Virus record (IMG/VR): IMGVR_UViG_3300023083_000010
Coordinates: 1-34,814 of that record
Direction: 5' to 3' (one strand)
Length of the DNA stretch: 34,814 bases
Source of the DNA: a virus
The number at the start of each line of letters is the position of its first letter. Positions within the stretch are counted from its first letter, which is position 1. A program made the translations under genes and the position numbers. Shown here piece by piece: positions 1,965 to 29,087 of the stretch. The notes under the pieces are model-generated. The model searched no databases and was not told the DNA's origin. It saw nothing but the letters and a program-made list of their open reading frames with translations.

Positions 1965-2804
1965 GTGAACAGCATGACCCGCACCATCGCCCCCGCCTGT
2001 GCTGTCGACCTCAACGGCATGGCCGTCATCGGTATGACGCGTCACGCGCTCATGGGCATCCGCCACGCGGAGGACACCGGAGGCGCCGCACCCGCAGCAG
2101 CACCGGCAGCCTCGCCGACGCAAACCGCTCTCGGAGCACCCACGGCACCGGCTCCCGCCGCAACGGGCACTCCGGCGACACAAACCCCCACGGGCGGCGC
2201 CCAAACGCCGCAAACGGGCGCACAGCCCGCCGCGGGCGCCGCCGAGACCCCTCCGGCGATCAATCCGGCCACCGGGCAGCCGTACACGGCCGCGGAGACA
2301 CAGAAGTTCATTGCCGATCTCCGTGGGGAGAACAAGACCCACCGCGAGGCAGCGGCAACGGAAAAGGCACGCGCCGACGCCGAGGCGGGCAAGCTCTCCG
2401 CCGTGCTCGCCGCGCTCGGACTCAACGCGGACGGATCCGCCGCGGCCAAGACCCCCGACCAGCTCACCGCGGAACTCAACGAGCGCAACACAGCCGTCGA
2501 GACCACCAAGCGGGAGAACCTCGTCCTCCGCGTCGCGGGCAAGGCGGAAATCTCGGCCGACGCCGACAAGATGCTCGACTCCCGAGCATTCAACGACAAG
2601 CTTTCGGCGCTCCCCAGCGCCGACAAGGACAGCGTGGAAACGCTCGTCAAGGAATGGGTGCAGGAGCACCCCGACCACAAGACAATCCCCGCCGCAGCAT
2701 CGTCAGGAGGCGTTGCTCACGCGGGGGGCGTGCCAACCACCCAGCGCAAGACTCTGTCGGAGGCGCTCGACGCAGCGCTCCCGACCCCAACCAAACGAAA
2801 GTAG
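1965..2804 (+). CDS. Capsid scaffolding protein
   Basis: A GTG start is chosen because AGGAG (1954-1958) sits 6 bases upstream; the open frame itself extends much further left, inside the previous gene. The product is 279 aa. Residues about 35-100 are low-complexity Ala/Pro/Thr, followed by a highly charged helical region (about 110-190) likely to form coiled coil, and a C-terminal segment ending in basic residues (PTKRK). This composition and the position directly before the major capsid gene are the hallmarks of scaffold proteins, which line the procapsid interior during assembly and are then removed. No protease is visible nearby, so scaffold may exit intact. An ATG three codons in (1974) is an alternative start. 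Confidence 0.85.
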   Translation: MNSMTRTIAPACAVDLNGMAVIGMTRHALMGIRHAEDTGGAAPAAAPAASPTQTALGAPTAPAPAATGTPATQTPTGGAQTPQTGAQPAAGAAETPPAINPATGQPYTAAETQKFIADLRGENKTHREAAATEKARADAEAGKLSAVLAALGLNADGSAAAKTPDQLTAELNERNTAVETTKRENLVLRVAGKAEISADADKMLDSRAFNDKLSALPSADKDSVETLVKEWVQEHPDHKTIPAAASSGGVAHAGGVPTTQRKTLSEALDAALPTPTKRK

Positions 2805-2813
2805 GAAATCAGG

Positions 2814-3806
2814 ATGCTTACACTCGCGGATGTCCAGGCGAACACCGCCGACGACATCGACTACAACCTCATCGACGAACTCCGCATGGGTTCGCCGTGG
2901 CTCCTCGACCGCCTCGTGTTCGACGACACCGTCGTTCCCGGCACGGCCGGCGGAACCCTCACGGCCGGTTACAAGCGCCTCCAGGCGACGCGCCCGGCTC
3001 ACACCCGCCAGGTGAACACCGAGTACCCCGCGTTCGAGGCCAAGACCAAGCGCGTCACGGTCGACCTCATCCCGATCGGTGCTCGCTACAACCTCGACCG
3101 CGTGATCGCCCGCATCGGCGCCACCTCCGAGGTCGCGTTCCAACAGCAACAGGCCGTTCGCGCGACCGTTGCAAAGTTCAACGACCTGTTCATCAACGGT
3201 GAGGCCGGACTCGACTTCGACACCGCTGCCCCCGAGTTCGAGGGCATCGACTCAATCGTCACCGGCACCATCACCGAGTGGACGGACGCAGGCAACCCGT
3301 GGGACTTCAACACCATCACGGACAAGGCCGGGGCGCTCGCCGTCACCCGCCAACTCCGCGCATGGCTCCGCAAGTTCGACGGCAAGCCCGACGTGTTCAT
3401 GGTCAACGAGGACGGCGCCGCTTTCCTCGACCGGGTGAACGACTGGATCACGTACTACAACGCGGTCAACGACTCGTTCGGCAACGAGGTTCCCACGTTC
3501 GCGGGGATCCCCTACGTCGACCTCGGCACCAAGCCCGGCACCATCGATCAGGACGGTGTGCTCACGGGCGAGGACGCGGAGGACTTCGTGATCCCCACCG
3601 TGAGCGGTGTGACCACGATCTACGCGGCACGGTTCGGTCTCGACTCCGTGCACGGCTACGCCACACCGGGCAACCTGTTCTTCCAGGCGCTCCCCGACTT
3701 CCAGTCGGCCGGTGCGGTCAAGCCCGGCGAGGTCGAACTCGGCCCTGTCGCGATCGCAGCCAAGAAGACCCGCGGCGTGGGCGCGTTCCGCGTCAAGGTC
3801 TCCTAG
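2814..3806 (+). CDS. Major capsid protein (HK97-fold)
   Basis: A 330-aa protein, 9 bases after scaffold, with AGGAAATCAGG ahead of the ATG. It has the length and composition of actinophage HK97-type capsid proteins: an N-terminal helix, a long beta-rich P-domain region (about 75-110) and an A-domain-like C-terminal half. It ends in basic residues and a beta strand (GVGAFRVKVS). There is no delta-domain pro-region, in line with the separate scaffold gene. Hairpins lie both before the scaffold gene and directly after this gene, as might suit a very highly expressed product. The gene is GC-rich with strongly biased codons. Assignment rests on position, size and composition; fold prediction would confirm it. 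Confidence 0.88.
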   Translation: MLTLADVQANTADDIDYNLIDELRMGSPWLLDRLVFDDTVVPGTAGGTLTAGYKRLQATRPAHTRQVNTEYPAFEAKTKRVTVDLIPIGARYNLDRVIARIGATSEVAFQQQQAVRATVAKFNDLFINGEAGLDFDTAAPEFEGIDSIVTGTITEWTDAGNPWDFNTITDKAGALAVTRQLRAWLRKFDGKPDVFMVNEDGAAFLDRVNDWITYYNAVNDSFGNEVPTFAGIPYVDLGTKPGTIDQDGVLTGEDAEDFVIPTVSGVTTIYAARFGLDSVHGYATPGNLFFQALPDFQSAGAVKPGEVELGPVAIAAKKTRGVGAFRVKVS

Positions 3807-3824
3807 GCCACTCCCACCGGTAAA

Positions 3825-3852
3825 GGCGGGCACCTCGAGAGGGGTGCCCGCC
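3825..3852 (+). terminator. GC-rich hairpin after major capsid gene
   Basis: A perfect 10-bp stem (GGCGGGCACC / GGTGCCCGCC) with an 8-base loop lies 19 bases after the capsid stop. It has no T-run. It probably acts as a partial terminator or 3'-end stabiliser that sets capsid mRNA level. Confidence 0.65.
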
Positions 3853-3881
3853 CGAACCCCGACCTCCACGAAAGGGAGATC

Positions 3882-4646
3882 ATGACCAATCGCACGATCA
3901 CCGCGCGCTCGAACACCCTCACCGGGTTCACGGGCGGCGCGCAGTACACGAACGGCAGCGCGACCGTCGACGACGCCACCAAGGGCGGCAAGGCGGCTAT
4001 CGAGTACGCCAAGCGCCACGGGTTCGCCGTCTCCGGGGGCATCGCCACCGCCGTCGACCTCACTCCTGCCGACGGCGAGGTGCTCATCCGGTGGACGACC
4101 GCCGAACTCAAGGCGTACCTCACCGACAAGCACGTCACGTTCCCGGCCGACGCCACGGATGAGCAACTCCGCGACGCGATCCGCGACGCGATCGACATCA
4201 AGGCACAGGGTGGATCCGCCGCGAACGAGTCGGCCGGGCACACGTCCGGCACGTACCCGCCCGAGGGTGCGCCCCCGGTGTCGAACCCGGACAAGCCCGA
4301 CACCCCGAGCGAGACCGTCAAGTGGGCGACGCCGCTCTCGGTCGCCAACGAGACCCTCCTCGACCCGCCTGTCGTGACCAGCCCGCCCGTGCTCACCAGC
4401 AAGGTCGCGCCGGCAACGGCAACGTTCACCGTCGTCGCCACGGGTGAGGATCTCCACTACCAGTGGGCACGCCAGGCCAAGGGCGTCGGCAGCTACGTCG
4501 ACATCGAGGGCGCCGAGGCAGCGTCCTACACGACCCCGGCCACGACCGTCGCCGACAACAACGGCGACCGCTACCGTGTGACGATCTCGAACGAGAACGG
4601 CACGGTCACGACGACCGGCGTTGTTCTCACCGTCACCGCGTCCTAA
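3882..4646 (+). CDS. HeH/LEM plus Ig-like domain protein, probable capsid decoration protein
   Basis: A 254-aa protein with GAAAGGGAG just upstream of its ATG. Residues about 71-104 (WTTAELKAYL... DEQLRDAIRDAI) match the pattern of the HeH/LEM helix-extension-helix domain seen in phage head-tail region proteins. A Pro/Ser/Thr-rich linker (about 110-165) follows. Residues about 165-254 are an all-beta, Ig-like domain: W195 in HYQW, the Y-R-V-T pattern of strand F at 231-234, and a closing strand TGVVLTVTA. Phage Ig-like domains decorate virion surfaces and bind carbohydrates weakly. Position right after the capsid gene suggests a capsid decoration or head-surface protein. The combination with an HeH module is unusual. 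A hairpin follows the stop. Confidence 0.65.
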   Translation: MTNRTITARSNTLTGFTGGAQYTNGSATVDDATKGGKAAIEYAKRHGFAVSGGIATAVDLTPADGEVLIRWTTAELKAYLTDKHVTFPADATDEQLRDAIRDAIDIKAQGGSAANESAGHTSGTYPPEGAPPVSNPDKPDTPSETVKWATPLSVANETLLDPPVVTSPPVLTSKVAPATATFTVVATGEDLHYQWARQAKGVGSYVDIEGAEAASYTTPATTVADNNGDRYRVTISNENGTVTTTGVVLTVTAS

Positions 4647-15968: not shown

Positions 15969-16087
15969 ATTCGTGTTTAACGCGGCGGTCGCGCAGTTGC
16001 CCCCCTCGGATCTTTGGTTCCGAGGTTGCGCTCCGCTTGAGGGCACTTGTAGACATCTTCCCAGTGTCCGAACGCGACCGCCGCTAG
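15969..16087. other. Short non-coding stretch between late terminator and tRNA
   Basis: No supported gene lies here. A weak 7-bp hairpin occurs at 16004-16025 (CCTCGGA / TCCGAGG, 8-base loop) and could end leftward transcripts just past the tRNA. Nothing else is evident. Confidence 0.5.
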
Positions 16088-16159
16088 CTCCCCCGCGAGG
16101 ACTCGAACCTCGACTTAACGCTCCAAAGGCGCGCGTGCTGCCAATTACACCAAGGGGGA
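16088..16159 (-). tRNA. tRNA-Gln (anticodon TTG)
   Basis: Read on the minus strand it folds as a cloverleaf: acceptor TCCCCCT/CGGGGGA, D arm GTG...CAC, anticodon loop CTTTGGA with anticodon TTG (plus-strand 16124-16126), T arm CGAGG TTCGAGT CCTCG, discriminator G at 16088. CCA is not encoded. Two features are imperfect: a T-C mismatch at the last acceptor pair and an anticodon stem with only three Watson-Crick pairs plus a wobble. TTG reads CAA, a rarer glutamine codon in high-GC hosts. It lies downstream of the leftward operon, beyond a hairpin. Confidence 0.85.
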
Positions 16160-16392: not shown

Positions 16393-17256
16393 TTAGTTCC
16401 TTTCGAATCGGTCGGACTCGACCCAGATCGCGGGTGAGAATGTGCCGTACTCGCGCACGAGGTAGCCGCTACGCCCACGGTCGAGTGACCATGTGACGAC
16501 CTCGCACGAGGTGCCCGCCGACCATCGGCCGGATGCGACGCGGAGGATGAGCACGTCGCCAGGTTCACGGCCGAGCGGGTCGACCGTGGGGAGTGCGCGA
16601 GGCGCGACGGTGGGTGCCGCGGGCACAGCCTCGCGGGGGTCGTGGGTCTCGACGGCGACCATCGAGGGACGAGAACCGGACGGCGCGATCTCGTGCGGGT
16701 AAAGGCAGGAGTCCGCGAGCGTGTGCGGGTTTCCCAATCCACCGTGTGCCTCGCACACGACGATCGGCGCGGCCGGCATCACGTCGAACGCGTAAACCTC
16801 GCGAGCGGGATCGAACCCGATGAGGCTCACCGGACGACCAGCATCGATGAACGCGCGGCGTGCGGCGTGTGCCTCGGCCTCGACCGCGAACGTGTGCTCG
16901 CCGAGTATCTCCGACTCCCGCTCGGCCTCGATCTCGGCGGTCACGGCGTCGTGGTTGATCTCGTCGATCTCCTCGTTGGTTACGATCGGCGCGACGACCT
17001 CGACAGGAACAGGGAAACACTTAGCGCAGAGGGTGCGTCCCTCGGCGATGAAGTCGGCACGAGTGCGACCGGCGACAGACTCGACGCGACTGACAACGGT
17101 GCGGCGCACGCTGCCCATCGTGGAGCAGTTGGCCGTGTTGTAACGGAATCGGTGGATGATCGTGTCGTCGAACGAGTCGTCGTCAACCGCGACGATTGTT
17201 CGGTGGGTCATGCCGGTCGAGCTTGTTCCGATTGCGGCGATCAGTCTGCGGGTCAT
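16393..17256 (-). CDS. Leftward protein, 287 aa, unknown function, Cys motif
   Basis: ATG 17256 is chosen because GGAG lies 8 bases upstream on the minus strand and 53 bases downstream of a likely promoter -10; a longer frame (to 17301) and a shorter one (MTHRTIVAVDDD) exist. The N-terminus MTRRLIAAIGTSSTGMTHRT is followed by a polar domain with CAKCFP near residue 80, an acidic helix (EIDEINHDAVTAEIEAERESEILGE), and a C-terminal all-beta domain (GDVLILRVASGRWSAGT, REYGTFSPAIWVESDRF) like an RNA- or protein-binding barrel. No family is recognised. It is the main product of the leftward island, opposite the HTH regulator, and so may be a switch or host-takeover protein. Confidence 0.75.
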   Translation of the reverse strand: MTRRLIAAIGTSSTGMTHRTIVAVDDDSFDDTIIHRFRYNTANCSTMGSVRRTVVSRVESVAGRTRADFIAEGRTLCAKCFPVPVEVVAPIVTNEEIDEINHDAVTAEIEAERESEILGEHTFAVEAEAHAARRAFIDAGRPVSLIGFDPAREVYAFDVMPAAPIVVCEAHGGLGNPHTLADSCLYPHEIAPSGSRPSMVAVETHDPREAVPAAPTVAPRALPTVDPLGREPGDVLILRVASGRWSAGTSCEVVTWSLDRGRSGYLVREYGTFSPAIWVESDRFERN

Positions 17257-17308: not shown

Positions 17309-17338
17309 AATCTACAGGCATTCGTGCCAGTTTTGCAA
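17309..17338 (-). promoter_or_regulatory. Leftward promoter for 287-aa gene
   Basis: On the minus strand: -35 TTGCAA (17338-17333), 18-bp spacer, and extended -10 TG-TAGATT (17314-17309). The predicted start, near 17302, falls on the edge of the 17282-17302 palindrome, so a bound regulator would block it. Confidence 0.6.
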
Positions 17339-17344
17339 GCACGT

Positions 17345-17374
17345 TTGCGTTATTTGTCGCAACCGTGCTACTTT
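17345..17374 (+). promoter_or_regulatory. Rightward promoter for HTH regulator, leaderless type
   Basis: -35 TTGCGT (17345-17350), 18-bp spacer, and -10 TACTTT (17369-17374). The -10 ends only 6 bases before the ATG at 17381, so the transcript would start at or next to the start codon. The spacer holds GTCGCAA, forming the imperfect inverted repeat TTGCG-N8-CGCAA (17345-17362), a likely second operator. Confidence 0.6.
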
Positions 17375-17641: not shown

Positions 17642-17645
17642 AAAA

Positions 17646-17680
17646 GGGCGGGACACCCCCAGCAATGAGAGATCCCGCCC
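17646..17680 (+). terminator. Hairpin after HTH regulator
   Basis: Stem GGGCGGGA (17646-17653) / TCCCGCCC (17673-17680), 19-base loop, starting 5 bases after the regulator stop. The loop contains ACCCCCAGCAATGA (17655-17668), a sequence that recurs as a gene leader at 23213 and 32827. It is probably a terminator or attenuator. Confidence 0.55.
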
Positions 17681-17706
17681 TATGCACATCGCTCGGCAGA
17701 TTGACG

Positions 17707-17759: not shown

Positions 17760-17918
17760 GTGCGAACGATCATCGCTCTCGCCCTCCTCATGTTCGCGCT
17801 CGGCCTCGGAATCGGGTGCACGATCGAGGGCGTCTATGACGGACGAACCCTCCTCGCTCTCGCCGCAATAGTCGCGGCGTTCATCGTCCACATGACAGAC
17901 CCTAAGGCTCACGAATGA
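17760..17918 (+). CDS. Small two-helix membrane protein, 52 aa
   Basis: The GTG at 17760 is preferred; an earlier ATG (17682, 78 aa) would read through a hairpin and has no ribosome site. The product has two hydrophobic helices (about 3-22, RTIIALALLMFALGLGIGC, and about 31-46, LLALAAIVAAFIVHM) separated by a short EGVYDGRT loop. Its TGA overlaps an ATG that also lies in frame with the next gene, suggesting coupling. Between a switch and a surface protein, it might be a superinfection-exclusion type membrane protein, but that is only inference. Confidence 0.55.
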   Translation: MRTIIALALLMFALGLGIGCTIEGVYDGRTLLALAAIVAAFIVHMTDPKAHE

Positions 17919-17971: not shown

Positions 17972-19285
17972 ATGAACCGCAAACTCGGGGCGGCGCTCGT
18001 CGCCCTCGCGCTCGGTATCGGTTCGGCTATCGCCGTGCCGATGTCGGCTAGCGCACACACCGCCGCACTCAGCGGCGTCGCCTCGTGCCAGGCTGACGGC
18101 ACCTACTACGTGGCATGGACTGGCACGCTCTCGAACTATGGCGATCACCAGTCGATCGACATCAAGGTCATCAAGCACGCCCCGGCCGGATCGAAGATCA
18201 ACGGCGTCGACGGCCAGGTGTGGTTGTTCGAGTGGCCGTCGCATTCCGCGAACCACGGCCTCACCCCGTTCCCGGCCGGTGGCGTGTTCACCTACACGCA
18301 GACCGGTATCCCCGGCGACGCTAAGTCGGCGACCTCCGGCTACCAGTACGACTGGGAGGTGGGCGGCGGATCCGGCGACCCCGAGCGCACGATCACGCTC
18401 AAGGGCGATTGCAAGGCCACCCCGCCGACGATCACCGTGCCGACGCTCACCCCGCTCGCGCCGACCTGTGACGAGAACGGCAACCTCCCGCTCCTCAACA
18501 ACCCGCCCGCACAGAATCCCGGAGGCTACGAGGTTCCCGGCGCCGGATACCGCGTGTACTACTCGCCGGCACCGACGAACCCGGCAGCACCAGGCACCTA
18601 CACGGCAACGATCCAGAAGATCGGCGCCGGGTTCGATCCCGCGTTCCCGAACGGAACCAAGGTCACCGGGCAGACGACGCAAACCCTCGTCGTGCTCGCC
18701 AAGCTCGGGCAGAACGCCGACCCGACGGCGCCGTGTTTCACGGGCGGCGACAAGCCCAAGGACAAGGTTGAGGTCATCGTCACGACTGACGCCCCGAACT
18801 GCGAGACGGACACGGTCGCGACCAAGACGTCGACGATCACCACGCCGTATGTGTGGATCGACGGCGCATGGGTGCTCGGGACTCCGGTGCAGGTCGACGC
18901 CTACACCTACCGGGATGCGACAACCGCCGAGTGCGTGCCTGACTCCCCGGAGCCATACACGACAGAACGCACGAGCGAGCGCGTCGACTGTGAAGCCAAG
19001 ACCGTTGTGATCTCGGTGTACACCACCGACGTCACGTGGGTATGGGATCTCGCGAACCTCACGTGGGGCAAGGTCGAGATCGAGCGCACGACGCCGACAT
19101 CCGTAACCGAACGCGCCGCGACCGCCGAGGAAACGGGAGAGTGCCCGGTCGTCAAGCCGCCGACCAAGCCGACCCCGACCGCGAGCCTCGCCGTGACCGG
19201 TGCGGATCCCGCTCCGTTCCTGTGGTTCGCTGGCATCATCGCAGCTGCGGGCGCCGGACTCCTCCTCCGCCGCCGCACCGTCTAA
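17972..19285 (+). CDS. Secreted, sortase-anchored surface protein (LAVTG signal)
   Basis: A 437-aa protein. ATG 17972 is chosen over 17915 because GAAAGGA is 6 bases upstream and a signal peptide begins at once: MNRK, a hydrophobic core, and a probable ASA|HT cleavage near residue 28. The mature part is Thr/Pro-rich and beta-predicted, with Cys pairs. Two related units of about 60 aa near the C-terminus (NCETDTVATKTST...YVW...G and DCEAKTVVISVYT...WVW...G, each ending ...CP) resemble repeats in actinobacterial wall proteins. The end is LAVTG (406-410), a hydrophobic segment (416-432) and RRRTV: a textbook sorting signal of the LAxTG class used by sortase E. No sortase gene is seen, so a host enzyme would be used. 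Confidence 0.85.
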   Translation: MNRKLGAALVALALGIGSAIAVPMSASAHTAALSGVASCQADGTYYVAWTGTLSNYGDHQSIDIKVIKHAPAGSKINGVDGQVWLFEWPSHSANHGLTPFPAGGVFTYTQTGIPGDAKSATSGYQYDWEVGGGSGDPERTITLKGDCKATPPTITVPTLTPLAPTCDENGNLPLLNNPPAQNPGGYEVPGAGYRVYYSPAPTNPAAPGTYTATIQKIGAGFDPAFPNGTKVTGQTTQTLVVLAKLGQNADPTAPCFTGGDKPKDKVEVIVTTDAPNCETDTVATKTSTITTPYVWIDGAWVLGTPVQVDAYTYRDATTAECVPDSPEPYTTERTSERVDCEAKTVVISVYTTDVTWVWDLANLTWGKVEIERTTPTSVTERAATAEETGECPVVKPPTKPTPTASLAVTGADPAPFLWFAGIIAAAGAGLLLRRRTV

Positions 19286-19292
19286 CCACCTC

Positions 19293-19320
19293 GGGGGAGG
19301 CGGCACATGTCGCCTCCCCC
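19293..19320 (+). terminator. Terminator after surface protein gene
   Basis: A perfect 10-bp stem (GGGGGAGGCG / CGCCTCCCCC) with an 8-base loop, 7 bases after the stop. Followed by ACCATCC without a T-run. It probably separates the surface protein mRNA from the recombination operon. Confidence 0.65.
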
Positions 19321-19341: not shown

Positions 19342-19932
19342 GTGCAATATCACATCGTTGGTCTCGACCTGTCGCTCTCCGCCACAGGTGTCGCCCGCAT
19401 CCGCCCAGGCGCCGACCGCCCCATCACTCTCTCCCTCGTCACCTCGTCGCCGGTGCCGAACGCGAAATACCCCCACACTCTCGACCGCATCCGCGGCCTC
19501 GCGTCCCGCATCATCGCCGCGATCAAGCTCGGCGCCGAGCCAGACGACATCATCGTCGTCGTCATGGAGGGCGGTGCGTTCATGTCGACGACAGGCCACG
19601 CCCACACCCGCGCCGGCCTGTGGTGGCTCATGTACCACCTCATCGAGAAGTTTGCTCTCGTGGTCGTCGTCGAACCGAGCAAGCTCAAGCGCTACATCAC
19701 AGGCAAGGGCAACGCGCCCAAGGATCTCGTGTTCTCCTCCGTCGTCCGCAACTACCCCGGAATCGGGATTGTGGATAACAATGAGGCGGACGCACTCGGA
19801 CTTGCGAGCATGGCCTCGCGAGAACTCGGCTACCCCATGGAGCCGAGTGTTCAACGCTGCACACCATCGGCGCTCGAGGGCGTCGATTGGCCGGAGCACA
19901 TCATCCAACAGAGGAGAAACCGAAATGGCTAA
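19342..19932 (+). CDS. RuvC-like Holliday junction resolvase
   Basis: A 196-aa protein; GTG start with GAGAGGA about 6 bases upstream. The RNase H-like fold is marked by the first acidic motif GLDLSLSATG (D9, residues 7-16), a strand ending in MEGG (E75), and the C-terminal NNEADALGLA segment (residues about 146-155, D150). All are expected catalytic carboxylates of RuvC-type enzymes that cut four-way junctions. It opens a recombination operon with a Rad50-like ATPase, exonuclease and annealing protein, and likely resolves branched replication or recombination intermediates before packaging. Confidence 0.85.
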   Translation: MQYHIVGLDLSLSATGVARIRPGADRPITLSLVTSSPVPNAKYPHTLDRIRGLASRIIAAIKLGAEPDDIIVVVMEGGAFMSTTGHAHTRAGLWWLMYHLIEKFALVVVVEPSKLKRYITGKGNAPKDLVFSSVVRNYPGIGIVDNNEADALGLASMASRELGYPMEPSVQRCTPSALEGVDWPEHIIQQRRNRNG

Positions 19933-20277: not shown

Positions 20278-20333
20278 TCTCGGCACCATTGCCGAGAACG
20301 GGGCGGCGCCCTACCGCGATTCGGCGCCGCCCC
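20278..20333 (+). terminator. Two tandem hairpins
   Basis: First: TCTCGGC / GCCGAGA with a 6-base loop (20278-20297). Second: GGGGCGGCGCC / GGCGCCGCCCC with a 12-base loop (20300-20333), 11 perfect pairs. They fill the 105-bp gap before the ATPase gene. No T-run follows. They suggest partial termination or an mRNA 3' end. Confidence 0.65.
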
Positions 20334-25491: not shown

Positions 25492-25592
25492 GCGACGTCA
25501 TCATCCGCATCCGAGCCGTCGACGACCAGTTCGTCGACGCGCTCGCCGACCTCCTCGACGGTGTCGACCACACCATCACGGTCACGTCATGA
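25488..25592 (+). CDS. Very small protein, 34 aa, unknown function
   Basis: ATG overlaps the upstream TGA and its own TGA overlaps the next ATG (25589), so both ends are tied to neighbours. The peptide (SDVIIRIRAVDDQFVDALAD, then LLDGVDHTITVTS) is beta-alpha-beta in pattern and acidic. Codon bias matches the operon. No family is recognised. Existence is supported by the tight packing, not by homology. Confidence 0.55.
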   Translation: MSDVIIRIRAVDDQFVDALADLLDGVDHTITVTS

Positions 25593-25795
25593 TCCAGGGA
25601 TCCGCAATCCGTCCGGTGGAGGATCGCCCCTCGCTCGCGCGTCGGTGCTACCGGTGCGGCGTCGATTGGTACGACGCCCGATGCGAGTGGCGCTCGGGCG
25701 CACCATGCAAGGACTGTCGCGTCACCCTCCGCAAAGAGGGCGTCGATCTCGACGAGTACCGGCGCCCCGCGAAACGAAAGAACCGAGCCGCATGA
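25589..25795 (+). CDS. Zinc-ribbon-like small protein, 68 aa
   Basis: ATGA-coupled start. C20-x2-C23 and C40-x2-C43 (RRCYRCGVDWY ... APCKDCRVTL), with an extra C32, form a likely zinc-binding ribbon. The C-terminus is basic (RRPAKRKNRAA), as expected for a nucleic-acid-binding protein. Many actinophages carry such a gene near replication genes. It overlaps the methyltransferase start by 4 bases. Confidence 0.7.
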   Translation: MIQGSAIRPVEDRPSLARRCYRCGVDWYDARCEWRSGAPCKDCRVTLRKEGVDLDEYRRPAKRKNRAA

Positions 25796-26766
25796 GCATC
25801 CACTACCAGGACGACCGCGTCACGCTGCACCACGGCGACGTCGTCGACGTCGGACGCACGCTCGAGCCGGGCAGCGTCCGCACGATCGTCACCTCCCCCC
25901 CCTACTACGGTCTCCGCGACTACGACGGTCAAGATCAGCAGATCGGAGGTGAGGAAACCGTGGATGAGTACGTCGAGAATCTCGTCGACGTGTTCCACGT
26001 CCTCCGCCGCGTGCTCGCCGATGACGGCACCCTCTGGCTGAATCTCGGGGATAGCTACTCCTCGTCGGGCGGGATGCAAGGCGTAGGCATCAACGCCAAG
26101 GTTGGCAACACCCGCGCCCAGGCACAGAACCGCACACGCCCGCGCTCCGACCTGCCACCCAAGAACCTCCTCGGCGTCCCGTGGCGTGTGGCGCTCGCGT
26201 TGCAAGCCGATGGGTGGATGCTCCGCTCGGAGATCATCTGGCAGAAACCGAACGCGATGCCCGAGTCCGTCACCGACCGACCGTCCAAGTCACACGAGCA
26301 CGTGTTCCTCCTCACGAAATCCGCCCGGTACTACTACGACGCCGAGGCCGTGCTCGAGGACGCATCCCCCGACAACATCGCGGACATGGCCGGGCGTAAG
26401 GCGATGGACAACAAGAGCGACCACGGAGGCACCCGACCGGATCTCGCTCGGTCGCGCGAGGAGTACGTTCGCGCGGACGGTAAGCGCAACCGCCGCGACG
26501 TGTGGTCGATCCCCACACGCCCGTTCGCCGGCGCGCACTTCGCCGTTTTTCCGGAGGAACTCGCCCGCCTCCCGATCCTCGCGGGATCCCAGGTCGGCGA
26601 CACCGTTCTCGATCCGTTCTCCGGCTCGGGCACCACTGGGAAAGTCGCTCTCGACCACGGCCGCAACTACGTCGGCATCGACCTCTCCGAGAAATACCTC
26701 GACCTGTCGATCGCTACCAGGTTCGCGCACCAAACCCTCGACGTGTGGGGAGGAGCGGCATCATGA
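25792..26766 (+). CDS. DNA methyltransferase, SPPY type
   Basis: A 324-aa protein; ATGA-coupled start. Motif IV is TSPPYYGL (SPPY at residues 35-38) near the N-terminus, and motif I is FSGSGTTG (276-283) near the C-terminus, the beta-class order. SPPY suits N4-cytosine or N6-adenine transfer; which one cannot be told from sequence alone. The middle (about 95-250) would hold target recognition. No restriction enzyme is adjacent, so it is an orphan phage methylase that probably protects the genome from host restriction. A second, different methyltransferase gene lies at 27723. Confidence 0.9.
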   Translation: MSIHYQDDRVTLHHGDVVDVGRTLEPGSVRTIVTSPPYYGLRDYDGQDQQIGGEETVDEYVENLVDVFHVLRRVLADDGTLWLNLGDSYSSSGGMQGVGINAKVGNTRAQAQNRTRPRSDLPPKNLLGVPWRVALALQADGWMLRSEIIWQKPNAMPESVTDRPSKSHEHVFLLTKSARYYYDAEAVLEDASPDNIADMAGRKAMDNKSDHGGTRPDLARSREEYVRADGKRNRRDVWSIPTRPFAGAHFAVFPEELARLPILAGSQVGDTVLDPFSGSGTTGKVALDHGRNYVGIDLSEKYLDLSIATRFAHQTLDVWGGAAS

Positions 26767-27535: not shown

Positions 27536-27726
27536 GCGATATTTGTTGGAGCAACTCGCGAGCAAAAACGCGCGCGTGCTCACGAATTGACACGTGCGCT
27601 ACCCTACGGACGAACGGACGAACTAACGCACGTCACACCAACCTCAAGCAGATCCGGCAAGTTCTCCACCGTGTGTGGAAAAGCCTGTGGATAAGTCCGT
27701 CACCCCAGCAAAGGAAACCCCGATGA
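27532..27726 (+). CDS. Possible 64-aa ORF or -1 frameshift extension, overlapping the origin
   Basis: GTG 27532 overlaps the upstream TGA (27533-27535), and the frame ends at TGA 27724-27726, overlapping the next ATG. Both ends look like coupled phage genes. The frame is also at -1 to the winged-helix gene, next to a G5 run (27523-27527), so a slip or one-base indel could fuse them. However, codon use is unlike the neighbours (poor third-position GC), and the region carries repeats and DnaA boxes, so the ORF may be incidental or a degraded initiator tail. Confidence 0.3.
   Translation: MSDICWSNSRAKTRACSRIDTCATLRTNGRTNARHTNLKQIRQVLHRVWKSLWISPSPQQRKPR
27608..27623 (+). repeat. Tandem 8-bp repeat in origin region
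   Basis: GGACGAAC occurs twice in direct succession (27608-27615, 27616-27623), followed by TAACG. It may be an iteron-like binding site for the winged-helix protein. Confidence 0.6.
27674..27682 (-). promoter_or_regulatory. DnaA box 1 (TTTTCCACA on minus)
   Basis: TGTGGAAAA on plus reads TTTTCCACA on minus and matches TTWTNCACA, the classical DnaA-box consensus. Confidence 0.6.
27686..27694 (-). promoter_or_regulatory. DnaA box 2 (TTATCCACA on minus)
   Basis: TGTGGATAA on plus reads TTATCCACA on minus, a perfect consensus DnaA box. It lies 12 bp from box 1 in the same orientation, so both sites face the same way on about one helical turn. Confidence 0.7.
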
Positions 27727-29087
27727 ACATGCCACCCCCGCACTTCGACAACGGACACGTGCGCGTGTTCCACGGAGATTGCATCGAGGTCATGCGCGAC
27801 ATGGCTGACAACTCGATCGACGCGATCGTGACAGATCCGCCCTACGGCCTTGGGTTCATGGGCAAAGAGTGGGACGATCTGCCGCCAGGAATCGACTTCG
27901 CGATTGAGGCTCTCCGTGTGCTCAAGCCGGGCGGTCACATGCTCGCGTTCGGCGGGACGCGCACGTGGCACCGCCTCGCGGTTGCCGTCGAGGATGCCGG
28001 TTTCGAGATTCGAGACTCGATCGCATGGCTCTACGGTTCGGGGTTTCCCAAGTCCCTCGATGTGAGCAAGGCGATCGACAAACTTGACGCAGCGGACGAA
28101 CGCCTCGAGAGGGCACGAACATTCCAAGCATGGCTTTCGCAACACATCACCCCTAGGCAGATCAACGAGCTAACCGGGACTGACATGGGGCATCACCTCA
28201 CGACCCACCCAACGCAACCGAGTGTGGCGACGGCTGAAATCTTCGACAAGCTACGACCGCACCTCCCCGACATTCCCGAAAACATCGAGACACTTGTGGC
28301 GCTCCGGACGGTCGAGTCTCAAAACTTCGCCGCGCGAGAAGTGGTCGGACAATACAGGTCATCTATCGCACGCGGATCGGCCGGAGTGACCGCAGCCGGA
28401 GAGGGCAAAAACATCACCGAGTCGTTTACAGAGGCCGCTCGCCAATGGCAAGGATGGGGAACAGCGCTCAAACCAGCGTTTGAACCGATTGTTGTGGGGC
28501 GCAAGCCGCTTTCAGGAACAGTCGCGGCCACTGTCCTCGCACACGGCACCGGAGCAATCAACATTCGGGCTACTCGGGTGAGTGACGAATCTGAGATCGA
28601 CGGCCGGTGGCCGACGAACGTTCTCCTCGACGAGACCCAGGCACCCGAACTCGACAAGCAATCCGGCACACTCACGTCTGGCGTGCTCGCCGAGCATCAC
28701 GCACGAGCACCGAAAGAATCGGGGATCCTCGGCGCTCCCGTAAGCGCCGAGGGGCAACGTGGCTACGGCGACACCGGAGGGGCGTCTAGGTTCTTTCCCT
28801 CGTTTCGTTACGAGGCCAAGGCGCCCACGCACGAGCGCCCGACGATCGACGGCCACGCCCACCCGACCGTGAAACCCCTCGACCTCATGAGGTGGCTCGT
28901 TCGCCTCGTCACTCCCCCCGGAGGTCTCGTGCTTGACCCGTTCGCAGGATCCGGGACGACCGGCGAGGCGTGCATGGTCGAGGGATTCGATTGCATCCTC
29001 ATCGAACTCGACGAGACCTCCCTACCGCTGATCGAAAAACGGTTGACGAAAGACGTTCAACCGACGATGTTCGGGGATCTCGCATGA
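27723..29087 (+). CDS. DNA methyltransferase, DPPY type, with inserted helical module
   Basis: A 454-aa protein; ATG with AAAGGAAA upstream. Motif IV is VTDPPYGLGF (DPPY 38-41) and motif I is FAGSGTTG (407-414), a beta-class N6-adenine pattern. Between YGSGFPKSLDVSKAID (about 104-119) and QWQGWGTALKPAFEPI (241-256) lies an extra segment of about 85 residues (121-205) that reads like a helical DNA-binding module (FQAWLSQHITPRQINELTG). This stretch has lower GC than the rest. The enzyme probably modifies genome adenines for protection; the insert may give target choice. Confidence 0.88.
   Translation: MNMPPPHFDNGHVRVFHGDCIEVMRDMADNSIDAIVTDPPYGLGFMGKEWDDLPPGIDFAIEALRVLKPGGHMLAFGGTRTWHRLAVAVEDAGFEIRDSIAWLYGSGFPKSLDVSKAIDKLDAADERLERARTFQAWLSQHITPRQINELTGTDMGHHLTTHPTQPSVATAEIFDKLRPHLPDIPENIETLVALRTVESQNFAAREVVGQYRSSIARGSAGVTAAGEGKNITESFTEAARQWQGWGTALKPAFEPIVVGRKPLSGTVAATVLAHGTGAINIRATRVSDESEIDGRWPTNVLLDETQAPELDKQSGTLTSGVLAEHHARAPKESGILGAPVSAEGQRGYGDTGGASRFFPSFRYEAKAPTHERPTIDGHAHPTVKPLDLMRWLVRLVTPPGGLVLDPFAGSGTTGEACMVEGFDCILIELDETSLPLIEKRLTKDVQPTMFGDLA

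Follow-up and report, generated by a model that had tools for sequence, protein, structure and literature searches.

The staphylococcal protein SasX is a prophage-encoded, sortase-anchored adhesin with an LPxTG-type signal, and represents a type that is expressed by lysogens and handled by sortase A. The proteins Llp of phage T5 and Ltp of phage TP-J34 are superinfection-exclusion lipoproteins located at the cell surface. Exclusion by T5 is also cited in the literature (PMC9863714). Among actinobacteria, the substrates of class E sortases, such as the Streptomyces chaplins ChpA-C, combine a Sec signal peptide with a C-terminal LAxTG motif, a hydrophobic stretch, and a basic tail. The sortases SrtE1/2 of S. 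coelicolor were found to cleave LAXTG peptides and to anchor LAXTG proteins (PMC5148588).

The DNA analysed here (the window, 34,814 nucleotides) is a 34.8-kb IMG/VR virus record of a tailed phage, which represents a fragment, and it encodes a 437-aa protein with all of these class E substrate features. Like SasX, this is a predicted wall protein of the LPxTG type encoded by a phage genome, but the family to which it belongs has mostly lytic carriers and a class E signal. With Llp and Ltp it shares a proposed stop of adsorption or entry at the envelope of the infected cell; in contrast, those proteins are lipoproteins and not sortase substrates, and the exclusion role of the window protein is putative. 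Anchored Micrococcales proteins carry related N1, N2, and C modules, whereas the window protein differs from bacterial class E substrates in being phage-encoded, in lying near DNA-metabolism genes, and in containing a module, A, that is hardly seen in bacteria. The same architecture with shared modules was found in the Microbacterium phage proteins Anakin 58, ClearAsMud 84, Mercedes 37, Magritte 249, Zooman 245, and FuzzBuster 74, as well as in Curtobacterium phage Elener 44 and Micrococcus phage Kurnik. These homologues differ from the window protein in the order and number of their modules, and the literature examined contains no description of them as sortase substrates.

The ATG at position 17972 was preceded by the ribosome-binding-like sequence GAAAGGA, and the in-frame ATG at 17915 chosen by the ORF caller would add 19 residues ahead of the signal peptide. 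By rule and hydropathy, the protein begins with a Sec signal peptide, MNRKLGAALVALALGIGSAIAVPMSASA followed by HT, consisting of MNRK, a hydrophobic core, and the predicted cleavage site. It ends in LAVTGADPAPFLWFAGIIAAAGAGLLLRRRTV, in which LAVTG occupies residues 406-410 and is followed by a hydrophobic stretch and an RRR tail. The hydropathy profile peaked only at residues 4-10 and 413-415. The mature part is rich in Thr (15%) and Pro (10%), and its eight Cys residues (39, 147, 166, 255, 277, 321, 340, and 391) form four pairs, one per module, in the order N1-A-C-(C). The preliminary description had named a Sec signal, a beta-rich Thr/Pro body with Cys pairs, and an LAVTG sorting signal, and translation and hydropathy confirmed this reading. 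The features of the locus are collected in Table 1.

Table 1. Features of the LAVTG protein gene and its surroundings, in window coordinates
Feature	Residues	Position	Strand	Description and basis
12-bp inverted repeat		17338..17369		AGCACGTTTGCG-8 bp-CGCAACCGTGCT (11/12); divergent intergenic region, just 5′ of the HTH gene
HTH (Cro/C1-like) regulator, 86 aa		17381..17641	+	PHROG 4583 transcriptional repressor, E=7e-11
Small membrane protein, 52 aa		17760..17918	+	GTG start, two hydrophobic stretches; sequence directly
LAVTG surface-protein gene, 437 aa	1-437	17972..19285	+	Translation; single stop at the end
Sec signal peptide	1-28	17972..18055	+	Cleavage predicted between ASA and HT; first mature codon at 18056
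Module N1	29-147	18056..18412	+	Ig-like beta sandwich; Cys39/Cys147 bracket
Module A	163-256	18458..18739	+	Cys166/Cys255 bracket; phage-typical
Module C	270-324	18779..18943	+	Cys277/Cys321; tandem unit
Second C-like unit	about 330-391	18959..19144	+	Cys340/Cys391; inspection and BLAST alignment to Pumpernickel 249-437
Pro/Thr linker	392-405	19145..19186	+	Sequence directly
Sorting signal		19187..19282	+	LAVTG, hydrophobic stretch, and RRR; hydropathy 2.1
GC hairpin, 13 bp		19293..19320		3′ of the LAVTG gene; possible terminator, T-run absent
RuvC-like resolvase		19342..19932	+	PHROG 159, E=2.8e-31; opens the DNA recombination/replication block

The sorting signal was evaluated with a rule demanding LA/LPxTG at 20-50 residues from the end, a hydrophobic stretch, and at least two basic residues, which was applied to all six-frame ORFs of at least 60 codons in the window and 35 phage loci. 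The rule was passed by the window protein and altogether by 33 of the 3506 ORFs, a fraction that is no rate for phages at large because the loci were chosen for holding relatives. All 33 ORFs were members of the family, and shuffled proteins passed in 6 of 70120 cases, or about 9e-5 per ORF. Since only family ORFs pass and shuffled proteins almost never do, the signal lies far beyond chance, and the sorting-signal search proposed in the preliminary description had a positive outcome. The NCBIfam anchor model Microco_LAVTG (NF058582) aligned to residues 406-435 (E=0.0018) at 18.3 bits, under its curated cut-off of 27 bits, and membership in that family was consequently not assigned.

The ASAHT cleavage site is shared by the majority of relatives and also by host surface proteins. 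In most of these phage and host proteins, of both the N1 and the N2 type, His is the first predicted mature residue (residue 29 of the window protein). An N-terminal metal site formed by this conserved His was considered and dropped, as N1 contains no second conserved His.

No sortase gene was found in the phage record. A sortase of some kind was present in 79 of 80 Microbacteriaceae genomes, and a class E sortase scoring above the NCBIfam curated cut-off in 89 of 100, these being plausible hosts. Two sortases checked individually were class E by NCBIfam, and one that was compared with the PDB was closest to actinobacterial sortases, including SrtE1 (5cuw). If the host is Microbacteriaceae-like, anchoring in the infected cell would follow from the established activity of class E sortases. 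The earlier assignment of LAVTG to the LAxTG class used by sortase E agrees with the cleavage of LAXTG by these enzymes (PMC5148588). Good evidence points to export, to cleavage by a sortase, and to display on the infected cell, and the window protein is very probably anchored to the wall.

The distribution of the protein was examined by tblastn, in which residues 186-256 matched 85 Microbacterium phage records at 50-64% identity, and residues 25-148 matched Micrococcus phage Kurnik at 37% identity. Searches seeded with relatives added more Microbacterium phages and Curtobacterium phage Elener. The 16 relatives taken from GenBank records represent at least 11 unrelated phage types with genomes of 39-193 kb; the types read were Krampusvirus, Quhwahvirus, Neferthenavirus, Mementomorivirus, Rogerhendrixvirus, Squashvirus, Magritte, Zooman, Pumpernickel, FuzzBuster, Elener, and Kurnik. 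All 16 end in an LAxTG motif, a transmembrane stretch, and a basic tail, and all start with a signal peptide except that of Pumpernickel as annotated. The annotated start of this Pumpernickel gene (243; positions 2152-3978 of locus L016) gives a protein without a signal peptide, and a candidate is encoded by the in-frame sequence ahead of it, which makes an annotation error in the start probable. A scan of IMG/VR with the single window protein gave no match, and a scan with an alignment of module A gave eight loci. Among the IMG/VR relatives, those at loci L061, L055, and L019 were cut by contig ends, and every complete one carries the anchor except that at L062, which reads LAYTA. The search of related phages for the LAxTG end, suggested at the outset, thus returned both anchor and signal peptide in nearly every complete relative.

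The relatives are annotated as membrane or hypothetical proteins, and five that were tested had no confident PHROG or Pfam match. No relatives were found on plasmids. The window protein belongs to this family by its homologous modules, signal peptide, LAxTG anchor, and position outside the structural block. The temperate Microbacterium phage Footloose, whose tape measure is the nearest, has no LAxTG protein, and therefore such a protein is not generally essential. No description of such phage proteins was found in the openly searchable literature, which included main Microbacterium phage papers. We found no earlier report of the family, whose apparent novelty lies in being phage-encoded, modular class E sortase substrates, mostly in lytic phages.

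Profile searches with eight modules recovered N1, N2, proline repeats, A, B, C, and D in many orders. The shuffled modules are always flanked by the signal peptide and the anchor, which is kept. In the window protein, N1 is common to Kurnik and host LAxTG proteins, and C is common to phages Magritte, Zooman, and Pumpernickel and to host proteins; the module HMM gave no separate detection of the second C-like unit. Module D, of about 145 aa, was observed in anchored proteins of unrelated phages (L013:2860-4122, L017:2860-4149, L024:7443-9026, and L086:7956-9542).

We propose, with a probability of roughly 45%, that the gene encodes a host-anchored surface protein outside the virion, which would alter the exterior of the infected cell during lytic infection. 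The protein would be made in the infected cell, exported by the Sec route, and cut between ASA and HT, and the C-terminal hydrophobic stretch would keep the exported protein in the membrane. A host class E sortase would cut LAVTG between Thr and Gly and link the protein to a peptidoglycan precursor, with the Cys-bracketed modules displayed in a row on the Pro/Thr stalk. The displayed protein may cover a surface receptor or compete with it, by which other phages would be kept out and the progeny would be released without binding back to the dying cell or its remains.

Receptor masking or adsorption block was ranked first among the conceivable purposes because phage receptors on Gram-positive bacteria include surface proteins, glycosyltransferase genes lie near the LAxTG gene in some carriers, and the exposed modules are reshuffled on a fixed anchor, a pattern expected from an arms race at the surface. 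Examples of such receptors are the sortase-anchored protein GamR (PMC9863714) and, for phage phiC31 in Streptomyces, surface glycoproteins (PMC5882110). This anti-adsorption role is put forward tentatively, its chances falling somewhat short of even. No sequence feature singles out adsorption, and Ig-like folds suit adhesion equally.

Adhesion is the main rival: a wall-anchored adhesin could make infected cells stick to neighbours or surfaces through modules binding host glycans or proteins, and progeny would be freed near fresh hosts. A stalk bearing repeated Ig-like modules is a typical adhesin design in Gram-positive bacteria, and module shuffling would alter the binding partners. Structure prediction of residues 29-405, which the preliminary description had suggested, succeeded in part. 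AlphaFold gave reasonably confident beta domains for N1 (about 30-145) and module A (about 150-245, pLDDT mostly 81-92), and residues 256-437 had pLDDT values <50, leaving no usable model of the C-terminal half. Among the many unrelated Ig folds that resemble N1 in structure are the streptococcal surface protein GspB and the pilin EbpB. However, the fold matches were generic and Ig-like, with Z of about 7-8 and no PDB Foldseek match at E <0.001, and no binding domain was identified. The best match in the viral fold library was a protein of Microbacterium phage Cressida. Pfam gave only Big_13 at E=0.06, below the cut-off, PHROGs gave no family, and a sequence search of the PDB gave nothing meaningful. 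An adhesin in place of the proposed alteration of the cell exterior is, on balance, rather unlikely.

The position of the gene bears on a second rival, in which the anchored protein would stabilise or alter the wall during infection, or compete with host LAxTG proteins for sortase, and so delay or shape lysis. The minor and major head proteins, the tape measure, and tail genes occupy 0.7-13 kb of the window and are followed, at about 14-16 kb, by what is probably the lysis region; a divergent control region spans 17.26-17.38 kb. The LAVTG gene is located past the lysis region, between the control region and a DNA block, which runs from 19.3 kb onward and contains the RuvC-like resolvase, an SbcC/MRE11-like ATPase, RecT, and DNA methyltransferases. 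The modules and the anchor resemble those of host surface proteins, and the same sortase would be occupied. The gene is nevertheless distant from the lysis cassettes in relatives (in ClearAsMud, lysin gene 45 versus gene 84), and no enzyme signature or catalytic domain was found in the protein, making a factor for lysis timing or envelope keeping clearly unlikely.

The HTH regulator and small membrane protein noted earlier were both found ahead of the gene. Pfam HTH matches to the regulator were below cut-off, and family searches with the membrane protein gave no match. The inverted repeat in front of the HTH gene occurs as a single copy in the window and is likely its operator. The claim that the gene is closed by its own terminator stood in part, since a GC hairpin follows the gene, but it has no T-run and the terminator scan reported nothing there. 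GC hairpins without T-runs, this one included, follow successive genes (17645-17681, 19293-19320, and 20300-20333) and could represent the way in which this phage terminates transcription. Elsewhere in the window were observed a divergent gene for 287 aa (16393-17256, minus strand) with a weak PHROG match only (phrog_2433, E=0.0015), a tRNA-Gln(ttg) gene (16087-16159, minus strand), and two related DNA methyltransferase genes (25561-26766 and 27675-29087), of which the second has an insertion in its centre when compared with the family profile.

A third possibility is a captured host gene carried as a passenger of little selected use. Chromosomes of Microbacteriaceae and of further Micrococcales likewise encode modules N1, N2, and C and the proline repeat, in proteins that, by sequence, have an LAxTG or LPxTG anchor of their own. 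Against this, many unrelated and mostly lytic phages keep the gene undamaged, including the two targeting signals, and in such phages a gene of 1.2-2.6 kb that served no need should decay. Moreover, pattern and alignment searches found no relative of module A among 84,980 bacterial and archaeal species, and profile searches of 300 Microbacteriaceae found one remote match, in an LAHTG protein; module B likewise had one profile match in these 300. As module A is nearly absent from host genomes, it evolved mainly within phages. A passenger gene is therefore improbable, and, from these module sequences, the phages seem to build a surface protein resembling those of hosts out of modules of which some derive from hosts and others evolved in phages.

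A virion decoration or receptor-binding protein with incidental secretion signals is the least probable reading by far, for although Ig-like modules are common on virions and Foldseek gave weak matches to, among others, phage tail-tip and FnIII proteins, the protein has a signal peptide and a membrane anchor, Pfam, PHROG, and fold searches gave no virion family for its body, and its gene lies outside the structural block, as do those of relatives, which were never among head or tail genes in any phage type read. The earlier statement that the gene is not part of the virion module holds accordingly. The relatives' genes are instead accompanied by replication, nucleotide-metabolism, sigma-factor, glycosyltransferase, or small unknown genes.

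In the cluster EC type (L006:3191-7006 and L007:2501-6269), the LAxTG gene is followed by genes for a sigma factor, a ParB-like nuclease, a glycosyltransferase, and a UDP-glucose dehydrogenase, a run that could possibly serve joint surface remodelling. The 18-bp motif of cluster EC was not present directly upstream of gene 84.

Display on lysogenic cells, which the preliminary description had allowed for, was not borne out. No tyrosine or serine integrase was found in the window, which is a partial record, yet the window carries an HTH gene resembling repressors and, next to it, a repeat of good operator-like form. The tape-measure protein of the window has its closest counterparts in phages of Microbacterium and Arthrobacter. 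Microbacterium phages are mostly regarded as obligately lytic, and for clusters EC (Quhwah) and EG (Hyperion) the absence of both integrase and repressor has been reported (PMC7302621). Most carriers fall in groups reported as lytic, and the LAVTG gene is probably not a lysogeny gene.

Sortase-anchored proteins are usually seen as bacterial, or as prophage cargo that benefits the lysogen, and here the carriers mostly only kill. This suggests that a lytic phage gives a new surface to the cell that it is killing. The broader idea that strictly lytic actinobacterial phages share fast-shuffling coat proteins hijacking sortase E, as a new, sortase-dependent form of superinfection exclusion and progeny protection, is on the doubtful side. 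Many carriers are sequenced phages of Microbacterium foliorum with a laboratory host, making wall decoration of the doomed cell directly testable. The analysis provides a likely interpretation for a set of phage genes that are widespread and had lacked annotation, and points to the exchange of surface modules between phages and Micrococcales.
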